This document shows, piece after piece, positions 8,816-23,066 of a stretch of DNA of 23,066 bases. A program made the translations under genes and the position numbers. A model generated the notes under the pieces. The model ran no database searches, had not been told where the DNA came from, and saw nothing but the letters and a program-made list of their open reading frames with translations. Each line of letters begins with the position of its first letter. The stretch's first letter is position 1. Source of the stretch: a virus; IMG/VR virus record IMGVR_UViG_3300031565_000400, positions 1-23,066 of that record; one strand, 5' to 3'.

Positions 8816-9028
8816 CTATCTCTTTTTGTATCGAGCTTCTAGAATCTGTTTTAACAAACCATCATAATCTACATCATGTTTTGTTAGATTATGACGTTCG
8901 AGTATCTCATTTAATGCTGCATGTGGGAACATTCCCATGCCAACATTCGGATAAGCATCGTCGTATTCTAACCTACCAAGGGCTAATTCCACGATTGGTA
9001 CTGGCACTGTTATTACTTTCTTTTTCAC
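8816..9028 (-). CDS. Small hypothetical protein
   Basis: 70 residues, no membrane segment. It begins MKKKVITVPVPIVELALGRL and ends in a helical stretch (YDGLLKQILEARYKKR). Overlaps the upstream cREC-type gene by 4 bp. Family not recognised. Confidence 0.65.
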   Translation of the reverse strand: MKKKVITVPVPIVELALGRLEYDDAYPNVGMGMFPHAALNEILERHNLTKHDVDYDGLLKQILEARYKKR

Positions 9029-9348
9029 GTTAATCCCTGTTGCTTGAGATCTAAATATTGACGTAAATATTTTTCAATGTTTTCACCACCGATAATGTTT
9101 GCTGAATGAACTTTAAAATCAAAATCTTTTGGCAAATATTTCCCATTGCTTGATAGGTCTAAACCAACAAGATATACTGCAAAATCTTGACCACTCGGTC
9201 CATCACCTAAATCATGATCGAATGAGATGAAGTTAGGGCCCTCAGGATGATCTAACAACCATCCTACGCCCTCATCAAATGATCGAACAACAATCCAATC
9301 ATAATCCGGCGGCATGCGTTCGTCGTCTAAAAATAGTTTGGACATCAT
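9025..9348 (-). CDS. Cyclic-phosphate-processing receiver domain protein (cREC-like)
   Basis: 107 residues. LFLDDERMP (residues 5-13), ISFDHDLGDG (41-50) and KVHSANIIGGENI (79-91) are the three conserved blocks of the cREC_REC family, a receiver-like fold predicted to process cyclic nucleotide phosphates. The acidic triplet, the D-H-D motif and the H-S-A-N motif are all present. First gene of the operon, with a strong promoter (9354-9382). Its ATG lies 5 bp after the -10 box, with no Shine-Dalgarno sequence (a second ATG lies 8 bp after). Early expression and family suggest anti-defence or RNA-end processing, which is inference. Confidence 0.78.
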   Translation of the reverse strand: MMSKLFLDDERMPPDYDWIVVRSFDEGVGWLLDHPEGPNFISFDHDLGDGPSGQDFAVYLVGLDLSSNGKYLPKDFDFKVHSANIIGGENIEKYLRQYLDLKQQGLT

Positions 9349-9424: not shown

Positions 9425-9432
9425 AATAAATA
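9425..9432 (+). promoter_or_regulatory. Late-promoter-like box of the radical SAM gene
   Basis: AATAAATA, one base from the T4 late consensus TATAAATA, 4 bp before the ATG at 9437. No Shine-Dalgarno sequence is visible. The same box precedes the genes at 11766, 13448 and 13475. Confidence 0.55.
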
Positions 9433-9436
9433 TACA

Positions 9437-11755
9437 ATGAAAACCAAAATCAGTCTAGTACAACCAAATTTTCAGCAAGGCCCGAAAGAATTAAATAGTT
9501 ATTACCTTCCATACAGCGTGGGAGTAATTTGGTCTTATGCTGCTAAATTTGAAGAGATAACAAATCAATTTGAATTGGATGTTTTAATATGGCAGCGAGA
9601 AGATTTAGATGAAACTGCTGAACGACTTGCAACTTCAGACATTGTTGGATTTAGCACTTACATATGGAATAGAAATTATAATTATGCTTTGGCGAAAAGA
9701 ATAAAAGAAAAGAATCCAGATTGTTTAATTATCCTAGGAGGTCCAGAACCTCCAATTACCAAGTTGGATATGTTTGAACACTTACCCTTTGTTGATCTAG
9801 TAGTTAAACAAGAAGGTGAGATTACATTTAAACGCATACTAGATCATTACAAAACAAAAGATTTTGAAAATATCTCAGGACTTGTTATCAACAAAAATTT
9901 AGAAGCAGTTGATACTGGTATGCCTGAACGTATAAGTGAATTAGCAGAACTTCCTAGTCCTTATACTACAGGGGTTTTTGATAAATTGGTTGCAGAGAAT
10001 CCTATTATAGAATGGAATGCTACATTAGAAACGAATAGGGGTTGTCCATTTCAATGTTTTACAGGAAATACAAAAATTATTACATCAAATTGTCCAAACA
10101 AAAAAGCAAAAAATATCCAAATTGGTGATAAACTAATTGGATTTGATGAAGAAACAAAAAAGCTTGTTGAAACTGAAGTTTTCCAAACAGTTAAATATGA
10201 TACTGATGAAATTTATATAATTAACTTTCAAGATGGTACGATTATCGAAACTACCGAAGAACATCCATTTTACGTGAATGGAGAATGGAAAGAAACTAAA
10301 AATCTTTGTATTGGTGATGAAATTTATGATATTACATATAATGGTAAGAAAATTATTTCTATTGCTATAGAAAAACGACAAGAATCAGTTTATAATTTCG
10401 AATGTTCCCCACATAAGAATTTTTTTGCAGAATATTTATTAAGTCATAATTGTACGTTCTGTGATTGGGGATCACTCACATACAGTAAAGTTAAGAAGTT
10501 TGGACTAGAAAAAATCAATGAAGAACTAGAATGGATCGGTAAGAATAAATGTGGTTTTGTTAGCATTGCTGATGCAAACTTTGGCATGTTTGTTGAGAGG
10601 GATAATTTAATTTCCGATAAGATTATTGAAGTAAAAGGCAAATATGGTTTCCCGTATACCTTCGGTGTTAATTGGGCAAAGAATCAGAAAAATGAAGTAG
10701 TCGATCTAGTAAAGAAGATTAGTAAAGCTAAATTGTTTGCGCCGGGATTAACAGTTAGTGTTCAAAGTATGGACGAAGGTGTATTAGAAAATATTAAACG
10801 TAAGAACTTAGGTATTAACAAAATCGAATCTATCTTCCAATTATGTGACTTAGCTGCAATACCTGTAGTTACAGAGCTTATCCTAGGATTACCAGGTGAG
10901 ACATTAGATACATGGCGCAATAACTTTTGGCGCTTGTTTGATGCTGGAAATCATACAGGAGTAGAAATATTTCAAGCTCAACTATTAGAGAATGCTGAGA
11001 TGAATTTGCTGCAACGTAAACTATACAAACTAAAATCTACCACAGTTTACGATTACATGAGTGGAAGTTATAACGAAGATGAAATAGCTGAGGGCGTTGA
11101 TGCAGTTATTAGCACAAGCACATTATCACTCGACAAGATGGTGGAATGCCAGGTCTTTAGTTGGTTTATTAATACATTTCACATACAAGGCCTAAGTACT
11201 TACTTAGCTAGATTTACTACAAAATATGCCAATATATCATACAAGGAATTTTATCAAACATTGTTTGACATGTTGAACGAAGATCCGTGGTTTAGAAAAG
11301 AACGAGAAACTATAGAACACTATTACAGAAAATGGATGGACGGTGGAAGAATCGATCATCCACCCATTGGTGGAATTTCTATACATGGATGGAATTTAAT
11401 ACATCGCACATTGCTTAATATACATGCTAATAATGAATATGATGTTGTATTCGGCAAACTTAAAACATTTATCTCAACTATTATTAAGGATGAGAAATTA
11501 GCAGCAGAGCTAATCGAATTCCAAGCTAGCCATATTGTGCATTATCCAATGATTAAAGAATATCCGCTTGAGAAAGAATTTACACACGATATACTAGGTT
11601 ATATACAAGATGATTCTCCAAACCTGCATAATCCTGCAAAATATGCATTCGTTTTCCCTGAGGAGAATAATATCTCATTAGCTAAGTTTTTAGAACTAAT
11701 TTATTTCGGTAGGCGCAGAGGATTCGGGAAAACTAGAATCACCAAATCTAAATAA
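9437..11755 (+). CDS. B12-binding-domain radical SAM enzyme interrupted by an intein
   Basis: 772 codons; 640 residues after removal of the intein (residues 207-338). Residues 5-150 form a B12-binding-like domain (LPYSVGVIWSYAA, DIVGFSTYIWN, IILGGPEPP, VVKQEGEIT). The [4Fe-4S] motif CxxxCxxC exists only after splicing: GCPFQ joins CTFCDWGS. Radical SAM strands follow, including SIADANFG and LILGLPGETLDTW. The C-terminal 250 residues resemble other large B12/radical SAM proteins but show no motif I can name. The enzyme should cleave S-adenosylmethionine and perhaps methylate or rearrange a substrate; which one is unknown. It starts the plus-strand late block. Confidence 0.92.
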   Translation: MKTKISLVQPNFQQGPKELNSYYLPYSVGVIWSYAAKFEEITNQFELDVLIWQREDLDETAERLATSDIVGFSTYIWNRNYNYALAKRIKEKNPDCLIILGGPEPPITKLDMFEHLPFVDLVVKQEGEITFKRILDHYKTKDFENISGLVINKNLEAVDTGMPERISELAELPSPYTTGVFDKLVAENPIIEWNATLETNRGCPFQCFTGNTKIITSNCPNKKAKNIQIGDKLIGFDEETKKLVETEVFQTVKYDTDEIYIINFQDGTIIETTEEHPFYVNGEWKETKNLCIGDEIYDITYNGKKIISIAIEKRQESVYNFECSPHKNFFAEYLLSHNCTFCDWGSLTYSKVKKFGLEKINEELEWIGKNKCGFVSIADANFGMFVERDNLISDKIIEVKGKYGFPYTFGVNWAKNQKNEVVDLVKKISKAKLFAPGLTVSVQSMDEGVLENIKRKNLGINKIESIFQLCDLAAIPVVTELILGLPGETLDTWRNNFWRLFDAGNHTGVEIFQAQLLENAEMNLLQRKLYKLKSTTVYDYMSGSYNEDEIAEGVDAVISTSTLSLDKMVECQVFSWFINTFHIQGLSTYLARFTTKYANISYKEFYQTLFDMLNEDPWFRKERETIEHYYRKWMDGGRIDHPPIGGISIHGWNLIHRTLLNIHANNEYDVVFGKLKTFISTIIKDEKLAAELIEFQASHIVHYPMIKEYPLEKEFTHDILGYIQDDSPNLHNPAKYAFVFPEENNISLAKFLELIYFGRRRGFGKTRITKSK
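10055..10450 (+). other. 132-residue mini-intein in the radical SAM gene
   Basis: Starts with Cys1 in CFTGNTKIIT (block A), has TTEEHPFYV (block B, T67 and H70), then VYNFECSPHKNFFAEYLLSHN (split: VYNFECSPHK, NFFAEYLLSHN; blocks F and G), ending His131-Asn132, with Cys as the first extein residue. All splicing residues are present. There is no homing-endonuclease domain. The insert is clearly more AT-rich than the flanking extein, suggesting later acquisition. It separates the first from the second cluster cysteine. Confidence 0.93.
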
Positions 11756-11758
11756 ATA
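11751..11758 (+). promoter_or_regulatory. Late-promoter-like box of the nucleotidyltransferase gene
   Basis: AATAAATA overlapping the TAA stop of the radical SAM gene, 7 bp before the ATG at 11766. Confidence 0.5.
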
Positions 11759-11765
11759 TTAGATA

Positions 11766-12446
11766 ATGAGATTACGAGAGATAATTAGTGAAGGCGGCAA
11801 CGCATTTAAAGGAGACCTAGCAACTCAACGGATTAACAAATCCGATGTTCCTAGTACAGTAGCTTGGTTGGGTAAAATATTAGAACTTAATATTGCTGAT
11901 AGCTTATTAGGTACGACAGGTAAAACTGCTACCTCCGGAGATATTGATGTTGGCATACAAGATAACGCTGGCGTTACTAAAGAAACATTAGTACAGCGGT
12001 TGACATCTTGGTGTGTTAGAAACAAATTAGATCCGCGCGCCTATGTTAAAAAATCCGGCGTCAATGTACATTTCAGAACTCCTATTAATGGTGATCCTAA
12101 ATTAGGACATGTTCAAACAGATTTAATGTTGTTACCGAATTTGGAATTAGCTAAATTTACAATGACTCCAAATTTTACATCGAAATATAAAGACGCACAA
12201 AAACATATTCTTTTATCAAGTGTAGCTAAATTTTCAGGACTTAAATGGATTCCTACAACAGGTTTGGTTTCAAGAACTACCGGTAAAGTAGTTGCTGACG
12301 ATCCAGAACACATGACAGAAATATTGTTAGGGCCAAATGCTACTACATTAGATCTAACCTCAGTTGAAGGAATAATGCGACATTTAGACAATGATCCGGA
12401 ACGAGAAGCAAAGATTGCAGACGCAAAGGCTACATTAGGATTATGA
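11766..12446 (+). CDS. Nucleotidyltransferase-fold protein with putative capsid-targeting leader
   Basis: 226 residues. GTTGKTATSGDIDVGI (residues 49-64) gives the G-x-D-x-D motif (D59, D61), and VQTDLMLLP (117-125) gives the third carboxylate D119, as in DNA polymerase beta-type nucleotidyltransferases. Such enzymes add NMP to RNA, protein or small molecules. The first nine residues, MRLREIISE, end in I-S-E before GG. That is the kind of site cut by T4-type prohead protease and closely resembles the start of the next protein. This suggests packaging in the head. Similar proteins are familiar to me from aquatic T4-like phages, but the target is unknown. Overlaps the next gene by 4 bp. Confidence 0.75.
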   Translation: MRLREIISEGGNAFKGDLATQRINKSDVPSTVAWLGKILELNIADSLLGTTGKTATSGDIDVGIQDNAGVTKETLVQRLTSWCVRNKLDPRAYVKKSGVNVHFRTPINGDPKLGHVQTDLMLLPNLELAKFTMTPNFTSKYKDAQKHILLSSVAKFSGLKWIPTTGLVSRTTGKVVADDPEHMTEILLGPNATTLDLTSVEGIMRHLDNDPEREAKIADAKATLGL

Positions 12447-12805
12447 GGTTAAAAGAAATTCTTTCTGAAATGGTTCACATTCCTGCAGGTCCGGGTGGAA
12501 GGGCAACGGTTCCTGCTCCAGCAGTTTTATATCATTCTTTAAGAGGACGTCCTGCAACCGATGCTGGTATTAAAGCTCTTCCATTATCTCCCAAAGAACA
12601 TGAATTGGCTTTTATGTTTCCATCGGAGAAACGACAGAATGGTTTTATTTGGTTAAGTATGGGTGCATTATCCAACGATGCTTATCAAATTGATGCGCAC
12701 AAATTAGATTCTACTAATTTACGATTTACAGGACAAAGCGAAGGATACTTATTACATGCAGGAGATATTCCTGCAGAAGCAATTATTAAGCGGCTTGCTT
12801 ATTAG
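12443..12805 (+). CDS. Small ADP-ribosyltransferase-like protein with putative capsid-targeting leader
   Basis: 120 residues. Leader MRLKEILSE is almost identical to that of the upstream protein and ends in L-S-E. The body has LYHSLRG (29-35), GFIWLSMGA (67-75), QIDAHKLD and GYLLHAGDIPAEAI near the end. This order (YH, W-L-S, valine/isoleucine-D-x-x-x-L, G-D-I-P-x-x-I) resembles small ART-fold domains that use NAD. The match is by pattern only, so confidence in function is moderate. Coupled to the nucleotidyltransferase by an ATGA overlap; its end overlaps the convergent kinase gene by 20 bp. Confidence 0.6.
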   Translation: MRLKEILSEMVHIPAGPGGRATVPAPAVLYHSLRGRPATDAGIKALPLSPKEHELAFMFPSEKRQNGFIWLSMGALSNDAYQIDAHKLDSTNLRFTGQSEGYLLHAGDIPAEAIIKRLAY

Positions 12806-13448
12806 CCCTATTAGCTAATTCGTTTTGAATCCATTCTGTTGCAGCTGGTTGAGTCGGCTTTTTATTTAGGAATTGTTCTAAACGCTTTGAAATAATTTGT
12901 ATGTCAGCATCAGGCTGTGAATTATCAACAATAAAGAAATTACCACTAAATGCATTTTGCAAATGTCCAAGATTATCTTGAGTTGTTTTCCAATTTTGCT
13001 CTACTCTATCTAACGGAACAGAGCGCCCTATTTGTTTTGCTCTAGCTAAGACTCGTTGAGTTGCGGTTTCTAAATCAGTATTAACAAATATCATAGCAAC
13101 ATCGTATCCGATTTGTTCAAGCACTTGTTTTGTTTTTTGTATGCGTCGAAGATCTTTTGCAGTACCATCAATTACCATACCCAATCTACCGTAGATATAG
13201 TTTTTTCGCTGCTTCATTAATTTATGCCAATAATAGTCATAATCTTTCGATCTATCTTGTTTAAGCATATTGAAGAATTCCCACCACTTATCAATATCTA
13301 CTTCTTTAAGACCAGTGTGGGCTAACAGTTTTTTTCTAATTGTAGTTTTGCCGGCACCAGGTGCCCCAGCCATAAAAATAGCTTTAAAAATATGAGGATC
13401 GTGTACACCTTCTTCTATTTGTTCTTCTTTTAGGTCTGAATAGCGCAT
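12786..13448 (-). CDS. P-loop kinase (zeta-toxin-like) with putative capsid-targeting leader
   Basis: 220 residues. The Walker A motif GAPGAGKTT (28-36) follows a hydrophobic strand. DIDKWWEFF and MVIDGTAKD match the substrate and Walker B regions of zeta-toxin/AAA_33-type kinases. The segment GVHDPHIFKA just before the P-loop is one I associate with kinases of T4-like aquatic phages. The leader MRYSDLKEEQIEE ends in I-E-E before G, a possible prohead-protease site. Such kinases phosphorylate nucleotide sugars, RNA ends or small molecules; the substrate is not visible. It is on the opposite strand to its neighbours but carries the same type of late box. Confidence 0.8.
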   Translation of the reverse strand: MRYSDLKEEQIEEGVHDPHIFKAIFMAGAPGAGKTTIRKKLLAHTGLKEVDIDKWWEFFNMLKQDRSKDYDYYWHKLMKQRKNYIYGRLGMVIDGTAKDLRRIQKTKQVLEQIGYDVAMIFVNTDLETATQRVLARAKQIGRSVPLDRVEQNWKTTQDNLGHLQNAFSGNFFIVDNSQPDADIQIISKRLEQFLNKKPTQPAATEWIQNELANRANKQAA

Positions 13449-13450
13449 AG

Positions 13451-13469
13451 AGTATTTATTATAAATACT
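13451..13469. promoter_or_regulatory. Palindromic bidirectional late promoter
   Basis: AGTATTTA, TTA, TAAATACT is a perfect inverted repeat in the 26 bp between divergent genes. Plus strand: TATAAATA (13460-13467), the exact T4 late consensus, 7 bp before ATG 13475. Minus strand: AATAAATA (13453-13460), 4 bp before ATG 13448. Confidence 0.65.
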
Positions 13470-13474
13470 GAGTT

Positions 13475-14614
13475 ATGAAAGTAGACGATATCATTCTTCA
13501 AGAAGCCCCATCTAATGGACAGAAGAAGAAGAAATTAAAAAAACGACCAGATATTCTGCCAGACATTGATGATGATGTACGGTACATCAAATTTGATACG
13601 GTATATGGACCATTAATTCAGAAAAATTGCAAAAAAATATTAAAAATTTATAAACAATTTAATGGTTTTAAATTATTATATAGAGGAATAAGTTCAATAC
13701 AGGATTCATTTATTGGGAAATCAATTGACAATCGAAGACCAGTTGATACTAGAAACAGAATACATAAGCAATTAGTCCAACTAATGATAGATACTGGATT
13801 TAAAGCGCATAGAGGTAATAGTATATTTACAACGACCTTCCTTAACCAGGCTGGTCGATATGGTGCTCCATACATTATATTCCCGATTGACGGATTTAAT
13901 TATAGTTGGTCTGTAAAACATGGTGATTTGTTTGGGTCAGTATTAGATGGAATACATGATATCACAGCGGTAGGAACTAACGATATTCTTTTCCCTTATT
14001 TACAACAAGCCGACAAATATGATTATAACTTTGTTAATATGATTGAACGGATGGAAAATCTTGTAAGTAGGTACGAAGACGAAAGTCCAGTAACTGGAAC
14101 GTCAGATTTTAAAATATATGAACGGTTATATACGAATGTATCATCAGCCCTTAATGAGCTAGCAAATAGGATAAATTTTGATTTTAATCTTAATATTGAT
14201 GAAGATGGTATTTCTTTGTCCACAAAACAATTATTAATGGGATATAATAGTCAGATTAAAAAATTAAAATATTCAATTAATAAATTAACTATTATTCTTA
14301 ATACTACACGAGCCTCCACCCACAAATTGATAATATCACTTAAGAAATTCACTGTTGAAACTATTAAAAAACTAACTATTTTTCTGAAAAATGTTATTCA
14401 ATCGGATACTGCTATTAAACAGGTATTTGCCAAATCTCAATTCTCCGATTTAGCATCGAAGAAGAAATTAATTCAAAAAATGGGATTAGTTAGTAACACA
14501 GCATTAGGAACAGCATTGCAAACTAGACATGAGATTTTAATAAGTGGTAGATATTATGCCTTTAACGAAGAAGAATGGCATGTTAAGATTCGGAAATGGA
14601 TCCGATCACTTTAA
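13475..14614 (+). CDS. ADP-ribosyltransferase-like protein with putative capsid-targeting leader
   Basis: 379 residues. The leader MKVDDIILQE ends in L-Q-E before APS and is followed by a Lys-rich linker. LLYRG (67-71, R70), NRRPVDTRNRIH (86-97), NSIFTTTF (115-122) and GRYGAPYIIFPIDGF (127-141) form the N-terminal half of an ART-like fold. RHEILISGRYYAF (351-363, E353) would supply the catalytic glutamate. Together these give an R-S-E type arrangement, as in T4 Alt, which is also packaged and injected. About 200 Lys/Ile-rich residues separate the two halves, unusually far. Enzyme activity is inferred. Its 3' end overlaps the convergent gene by 9 bp. Confidence 0.65.
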   Translation: MKVDDIILQEAPSNGQKKKKLKKRPDILPDIDDDVRYIKFDTVYGPLIQKNCKKILKIYKQFNGFKLLYRGISSIQDSFIGKSIDNRRPVDTRNRIHKQLVQLMIDTGFKAHRGNSIFTTTFLNQAGRYGAPYIIFPIDGFNYSWSVKHGDLFGSVLDGIHDITAVGTNDILFPYLQQADKYDYNFVNMIERMENLVSRYEDESPVTGTSDFKIYERLYTNVSSALNELANRINFDFNLNIDEDGISLSTKQLLMGYNSQIKKLKYSINKLTIILNTTRASTHKLIISLKKFTVETIKKLTIFLKNVIQSDTAIKQVFAKSQFSDLASKKKLIQKMGLVSNTALGTALQTRHEILISGRYYAFNEEEWHVKIRKWIRSL

Positions 14615-22198: not shown

Positions 22199-23066
22199 CT
22201 ATTGCAGTTGGATTTTCTTGACCAGGCCAGCTGAGAAATAATTTTCATACTTATCATATACTTGCTCAGTCATTTGCTTAAATTTCTCAATTTCAGCCTC
22301 AGGAAGATCTACAACGTCAATGTCATCCTTAGCGCAACGTGCTTGAACTAATTCGATATCTTCCAAACTAATTGCACGTTCGTACCTTGCAGCATTTTCT
22401 GCGGCTGTTTGGATTTTATCTTGCGTGTCTTTATTTAGGCTATCCCAAAATTCAGTGTTAACAATAATTGAGGTTAGGAATAAACTATGCTTGGTGTCGT
22501 TAATAAATCCACAGGCTTCATTCTGCTTTAGTGCATAGAAACGTGGGTAAGTACTTTCACCACCTTCAATTTCACCATCCTTGACAGCATTGGTAATCGC
22601 TTCTAATTCCATTACTACTGGATCTGCTCCGATTGCTTTGAGAATATCTATAGCGACTGGACTTCTATTAGAACGTACTTTTAGTCCTTTGAAATCATCC
22701 ATGTTATTAATTTGTTTAGTGGCCGGAATCATTCTATATCCACCACTGTAAGTAAATGCTAATCCTTTTACATTACTATCTGTTCCGAGACCGTTAAGTA
22801 ATCCCTTACCAATTTCTCCGTCAAGGACTCTTGCTGCATGTTCGTGATCCTTAAATAAGAATGGAAGATCTAATACATGCATGTCCTTCGAATATCTTTC
22901 TCCCAACCAAACGGTGTACATTTGGCTCATTTCAATATCGCCCGATTCCATTAAATCTAATAGATCGTGTTTTGTAATTTTCTTTCCACCGTGGTATTTG
23001 TTGCCGTATTCGCTCAATGTCATAATTTCAAATTCCATTAAGCCTGGCATTGTAACGCTCAACTCT
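22199..23066 (-). CDS. TRAP transporter solute-binding protein (DctP-like), N-terminus outside window
   Basis: At least 288 residues; the frame is open to the window edge, and by family length about 20-40 N-terminal residues, including any signal peptide, are missing. GDIEMSQMYTVWLGE, LPFLFKDHEHAARVL and NMDDFKGLKVRSNRSPVAID, then GADPVVMELEAITNAVKDGE and IEGGESTYPRFYAL, are the conserved DctP blocks. Family members bind carboxylic acids in the periplasm and deliver them to a TRAP membrane pair. No membrane subunits are visible here, so it would work with host subunits or change uptake during infection. Followed within 63 bp by the HAD gene. Confidence 0.88.
   Translation of the reverse strand, partial: ELSVTMPGLMEFEIMTLSEYGNKYHGGKKITKHDLLDLMESGDIEMSQMYTVWLGERYSKDMHVLDLPFLFKDHEHAARVLDGEIGKGLLNGLGTDSNVKGLAFTYSGGYRMIPATKQINNMDDFKGLKVRSNRSPVAIDILKAIGADPVVMELEAITNAVKDGEIEGGESTYPRFYALKQNEACGFINDTKHSLFLTSIIVNTEFWDSLNKDTQDKIQTAAENAARYERAISLEDIELVQARCAKDDIDVVDLPEAEIEKFKQMTEQVYDKYENYFSAGLVKKIQLQ

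Follow-up and report, generated by a model that had tools for sequence, protein, structure and literature searches.

Four neighbouring genes in an uncultured viral DNA fragment (IMGVR_UViG_3300031565_000400, positions 1-23,066; the whole 23,066-nt stretch is called the window below) begin with leaders that are probably T4-type capsid-targeting propeptides, and the genes would then encode a set of enzymes ejected into the host. From the sequence comparisons we put the probability of this reading at roughly 0.78. All four leaders (9-13 residues each) end in [L/I]-x-E, as the first-pass annotation had proposed. Comparison with homologues supports the leader function well, and packaging and ejection we infer from T4 and from a gene cluster of the jumbo phage Atu_ph07.

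The features are collected in Table 1. The four leader genes are indeed adjacent, but gene 3 lies on the opposite strand, convergent with gene 2 (20 bp overlap) and divergent from gene 4. Because of this convergent and overlapping arrangement, the four genes do not form one operon. Leader 3 may possibly be cut a second time after E8 (LKE).

Table 1. Leader genes, predicted cut sites and upstream boxes in the window (↓, predicted cut).
Feature	Position	Strand	Evidence or remark
Gene 1, nucleotidyltransferase-like, 226 aa, SGDIDV...VQTDLM, mature domain from GGNAFKG	11766..12446	+	motifs invariant in distant homologues
Leader 1, MRLREIISE, ends I-S-E, predicted cut after E9	11766..11792	+	homologue comparison
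Gene 2, 120-aa protein without family match	12443..12805	+	
Leader 2, MRLKEILSE, ends L-S-E, predicted cut after E9	12443..12469	+	relative with MRYKEIVTE in same position
Gene 3, P-loop kinase (Zeta_toxin/AAA_33), 220 aa	12786..13448	-	PF06414 E=2e-16; phrog_12810 E=4e-51
Leader 3, MRYSDLKEEQIEE, ends I-E-E, predicted cut after E13	13410..13448	-	[LIV]-x-E↓G conserved
Gene 4, 379-aa R-S-E (ART-like) family protein	13475..14614	+	phrog_11975 E=4e-31; R70, S116, E353 invariant
Leader 4, MKVDDIILQE, ends L-Q-E, predicted cut after E10	13475..13504	+	TIQE↓AP (L001) and QLNE↓AP (L002) in relatives
T4-late-promoter-like box TATAAATA, 15 nt ahead of gene 4 start	13460..13467	+	only exact copy in window
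Box AATAAATA, 12 nt ahead of gene 3 start	13453..13460	-	
Box AATAAATA, 15 nt ahead of gene 1 start	11751..11758	+	
Box AATAAATA, 12 nt ahead of radical SAM gene	9425..9432	+	
B12 radical SAM enzyme (KedN5-like) with intein, shares box	9437..11755	+	without L-x-E leader

The first-pass annotation had named the cargo as a nucleotidyltransferase, two ART-like proteins and a kinase, and this list stands in part. Gene 3 is a kinase with a P-loop and a PF06414 family match of 60 bits against a cut-off of 22. The SGDIDV motif and later D of gene 1 form a nucleotidyltransferase pattern, while a profile-library search with this gene gave no match. The two ART-like proteins are unproven. Searches of Pfam, PHROG and NCBIfam gave no assignment for gene 2, and an enzymatic function of this protein is not established. 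For gene 4, the R, S, E triad stands in ART order and is invariant in 14 sequences of the family, but neither profile nor structure comparison linked the protein to a known ART. Its profile aligned to T4 Alt, ModA and ModB with an hhalign probability of 0.1. The AlphaFold2 model of the window protein, built from 5 sequences, was useless (pLDDT 40), and a homologue model of pLDDT 86 had OspC3 and CopC as PDB hits at probability below 0.1. Since this homologue model had no significant PDB match, no ART fold is claimed for gene 4. Gene 4 was also considered as a KptA-like RNA-repair protein; this was rejected, as its motif is R-S-E and the KptA motif differs from it.

A syntenic relative (contig 3300031539_000091, L001 in Table 1 and also handled as G001) carries these genes in unchanged order plus one additional small gene. 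Body identities for genes 1-4 are 61, 83, 80 and 32%, and this contig holds the one relative of gene 2. Its leaders read MRLFEFTRTLAE↓GG, MRYKEIVTE↓MV, MKCFEVINQPIEE↓G and MTDKTIQE↓AP, so that leader lengths (window/relative) are 9/12, 9/9, 13/13 and 10/8. Most leader residues differ, yet [LIV]-x-E is kept in 4/4 orthologues at an unchanged distance to the mature domain. In the gene 3 leader, 9 codons differ non-synonymously and 0 synonymously with IEE unchanged, as one would expect if the leader tolerates change but the cut site is fixed.

A wider comparison was possible for gene 1. With an alignment as query, at least 584 relatives were recovered in viral contigs, while the single-sequence query was unsuccessful. 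Of about 80 homologues from viral contigs, all except two have E directly before GG, preceded by leaders of 4-15 residues or by an upstream domain; many of these leaders have 5 residues, shorter than the 6 of T4 Alt. Atu_ph07 gp065 and Phosso gp447 are leaderless, with the initial M abutting the GG of the predicted cut (M↓GGRAFDG versus ISE↓GGNAFKG with a leader). DUF6267 proteins also occur with a leader (MYNDLLVE↓DKNTHLEHLED in HTVC008M, MINFSKYITE↓DKGG in Melnitz) and without one (MAKNTHLEHLED in cyanophage P-TIM40). In both families the leader is thus separable from the folded domain. DUF6267 itself (e.g. locus L035, 6242-7474) has KWDGAP and EG[FY]VA motifs reminiscent of nucleic acid ligases, and no paper on this domain was found among open-licence papers.

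Many gene-1 homologues are fusions, about 620 aa long, of the nucleotidyltransferase with DUF6267. Across 46 aligned fusions, only two columns had [LIVF]-x-E in all sequences, one before GG and one at the domain junction. After reduction below 75% identity, both [L/I/V/F]-x-E sites were kept in 27/27 non-redundant fusions, and at the junction P3 (I or L) and P1 (E) are fixed while the other positions vary. Other domains follow the same pattern. The kinase domain has [LIV]-x-E↓G upstream in 11/11 contexts (7 N-terminal, 4 internal), the LFDT/LFEP domain has L/I-x-E at 4/4 starts, all internal, and the IDNKDGAG domain has hydrophobic-x-E at 5/5 starts, one internal. A leader is present in 21/23 proteins of the gene-4 family. 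Among the cut sites in general, some have valine instead of L/I at P3. A random position has a chance of about 23% of carrying a hydrophobic-x-E-type motif within six residues; given this background the individual sites are weak evidence, but the whole set is not.

These data bear on a different role for the leaders, namely that they are helices for targeting or interaction in some other function, such as docking onto a complex of the host or the phage or forming part of the fold, the glutamate being structural. Such a role would fit the near-invariance of E↓GG even behind a 5-residue N-terminus. It would not fit the leaderless homologues that begin directly at GG, the junction that varies except at P3 and P1, or the same signature ahead of at least five unrelated domains, and we consider it unlikely.

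Leader genes also form arrays elsewhere. In Atu_ph07, eleven consecutive genes (gp053-gp063) begin with M[RK]W..L.E or MRLFQLLE; homologues of genes 3 and 4 lie within this array and a gene 1 homologue two genes off. In gp063, a GNAT-like domain is joined to a gene-4-like domain via SITE↓TAE, and gp053 combines several unrelated domains in a single chain, with candidate cuts after VTE, LTE, LNE and ITE. At locus L112 six leader genes stand in a row, among them those for an amidoligase and a gene-1 homologue. Locus L105 (910-5643) encodes a multidomain protein of 1577 aa that has both a leader and L/I-x-E sites further inside, and in which ART-like, GNAT-like, ParB-like and nucleotidyltransferase-like stretches were seen by eye. 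The Atu_ph07 virion is reported to contain 131 proteins, of which 29 come from CDS 31-76, a regional figure for a range that contains gp053-gp063 (PMC6102473). In GenBank gp053-gp063 are annotated as 'hypothetical', and some other virion proteins are labelled structural.

The tagged proteins could instead be packaged and processed components of the head core or internal structure that stay in the virion for assembly and are not injected. The T4 core proteins gp22, gp67 and gp68 and the vertex protein gp24 do bear the same kind of site, and the Atu_ph07 cluster proteins have been described as structural. However, the conserved catalytic motifs of the kinase, the nucleotidyltransferase and the R-S-E family would be needless in structural parts, and T4 Alt and the internal proteins with such leaders are ejected (PMC9026906). 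We regard a purely structural role as quite unlikely.

Taken alone, the L/I-x-E ending is weak evidence; it is the comparative evidence that makes it strong. In its loose form (L/I-x-E complete by residue 14), the motif was found in 9 of 100 annotated lambda and N4 proteins, and outside the four genes in only 1 other of the 37 curated window genes. A chance run of four such genes has a probability of about 0.003 over the window, a figure that ignores the post-hoc choice of the motif. We also defined a stricter two-part motif, which requires L/I/V/T-x-E together with hydrophobic residues spaced like T4 residues 4 and 7. The leader pairs L-R-E-I, L-K-E-I, Y-S-D-L and V-D-D-I match T4 Y-Q-E-F at these positions; as the motif was derived post hoc from the four leaders, it is treated as descriptive. 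A search of the window for further proteins starting with this stricter motif returned exactly these four genes (0.5 expected). The same motif was found in 0 genes of lambda, 0 of N4 and 11 of T4 (2.3 expected), the last including ipI, ipII, ipIII and gene 24. Genome-wide loose L-x-E counts were only modestly raised, not in every relative, and carry no weight in our conclusions. Leaders 1 and 2 are, as had been noted at first pass, alike in protein (7/9 residues identical) but diverged in DNA (19/27 nt identical), with different codons at 4 of the 7 shared residues. This small sample is compatible with selection on the protein. The 9% rate in unrelated phage genes and the lack of a genome-wide excess in several relatives would suit short L-x-E N-termini that arose by chance and were picked post hoc, but this highly improbable reading is already contradicted by the comparative data, in which the cut site is conserved though leaders diverge, stays invariant in 27 non-redundant homologues, recurs at internal domain starts and marks exactly where leaders are gained or lost.

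The T4-type reading also calls for a prohead protease. An S77 prohead protease (PF03420) was found in 5/5 complete named phages with homologues and in 4/4 records of at least 150 kb with homologues, i.e. in 9/9 complete or long records. No such gene was found in the 23-kb window or in the shorter records, and these are uninformative on a gp21-like protease. As the site persists where the rest of the leader has changed, recurs at domain junctions and belongs to phages carrying S77, the leaders are best described as removable modules. The first-pass view of T4-type leaders is thus supported in part, namely as to discrete modules with a gp21-type cut site; the packaging and injection that it proposed are predicted. 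In one relative, a 157-kb phage, the prohead protease gene (L023 17605-19281, G014 74605-76284) contains an intein with a LAGLIDADG domain. Many genes at 63-120 kb of this genome, several of them near the protease, begin with an amphipathic leader of greater length, e.g. MKLSKLKTLIKECILE, which is possibly that phage's own capsid-targeting sequence.

Most genes of the array share an upstream element. T4-late-promoter-like boxes stand 12-15 nt ahead of the start of 4/5 array genes, the radical SAM gene included, versus 0/38 others (p=4e-5). Over the whole window [TAC]ATAAATA is depleted (5 copies on both strands versus about 11 expected). The syntenic relative has the box before the same four genes. 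The T4 late boxes that were checked lie 31-42 nt from the start codon, whereas the spacing of 12-15 nt would imply nearly leaderless mRNAs or another role of the box. Ahead of gene-1 homologues in other phages, which lie mostly inside operons, the box was not found. Because it lacks the L-x-E leader, the radical SAM protein is probably not cargo. Its intein interrupts the radical SAM cysteine motif, and the G001 gene is intein-free. Elsewhere, the window encodes a cyclic-phosphate processing receiver domain (cREC) protein (9025-9348) and a DctP solute-binding protein of the TRAP transporter type (22199-23062), the latter a possible host-derived metabolic gene.

Under the propeptide reading, the tagged proteins would be made late in infection and attached to the prohead core by the N-terminal leader, with hydrophobic residues at i and i+3 as at T4 residues 4 and 7. 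The S77 prohead protease would cut after [L/I]-x-E and free the enzymes within the head, from which they would pass into the next host along with the DNA. In the window phage they are separate genes with a leader each. In relatives the same domains are strung into polyproteins with a cut site at the junctions, so that one packaged chain would yield several enzymes. In the host, gene 4 might serve protein ADP-ribosylation or modification, and genes 1 and 3 RNA or nucleotide modification. Counting against the propeptide reading are the 5-residue leaders of many gene-1 homologues, valine at P3 of some sites, the short spacing of the boxes, the fragment's lack of a protease gene, the 'hypothetical' labels of gp053-gp063 and leader counts that are raised in some relatives only.

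The same tag or cut site in hundreds of related phages suggests that co-injection of enzymes with viral DNA may be widespread. We lean, by a small measure, towards a general injection system in uncultured T4-related phages, in which any enzyme domain could become cargo through a short [L/I]-x-E leader or junction, and polyvalent effector polyproteins would enter the head intact, where the prohead protease would divide them into single-domain enzymes. If so, the two-part leader would make cargo readable straight from genome sequence. Injected phage proteins are mostly unknown beyond a few model phages, and with a sequence tag marking them, thousands of phage genes that now lack annotation would become injected effectors open to testing. 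Such a tag would also join two separate ideas, T4 capsid targeting and polyvalent effector proteins. The scale of the arrays looks new, as do polyproteins with cut sites where their domains meet and the large number of relatives in uncultured phages; no description of leader arrays or junction-cut polyproteins was found in the open-licence papers searched.

Among known systems, the window leaders resemble those of T4 IPI-IPIII and Alt. T4-type cuts are published (PMC9026906, PMC5694885), the comparator sites being MKTYQEFIAE↓A and MELITE↓L, and residues 4 and 7 matter for IPIII targeting (PMC9026906). Common to both are the short leader ending in [L/I]-x-E, hydrophobic residues at positions 4 and 7, an S77 protease (gp21 in T4, here in relatives) and an R-S-E family among the cargo. 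The window cargo is, however, not homologous to the T4 internal proteins, and profile comparison linked gene 4 to none of Alt, ModA and ModB. Arrays of 4-11 consecutive tagged genes and relatives with polyproteins and internal sites further set the present system apart. Many myovirus ARTs are predicted from gene neighbourhood and fusions to be packaged and injected (PMC9503650); this prediction is shared here, and that paper does not mention propeptides or Atu_ph07. In the phiKZ and SPN3US ejection proteins (PMC5694885, PMC10052503), the prohead protease likewise removes propeptides after E, but it cuts at S/A-x-E, with S, A, G or T at P3 versus L/I in the window leaders. Polyvalent proteins, as described in the part of Iyer et al. 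2017 (PMC5512222) considered here, share ART-like, GNAT and nucleotidyltransferase domains, are multidomain and are thought to be injected; their processing is attributed in that part to an embedded metallopeptidase (P1 DdrB), not to a prohead protease. In contrast, the window domains are separate genes, with the multidomain form seen only in relatives (Atu_ph07 gp053, L105), where the domains are joined by T4-type prohead protease sites.
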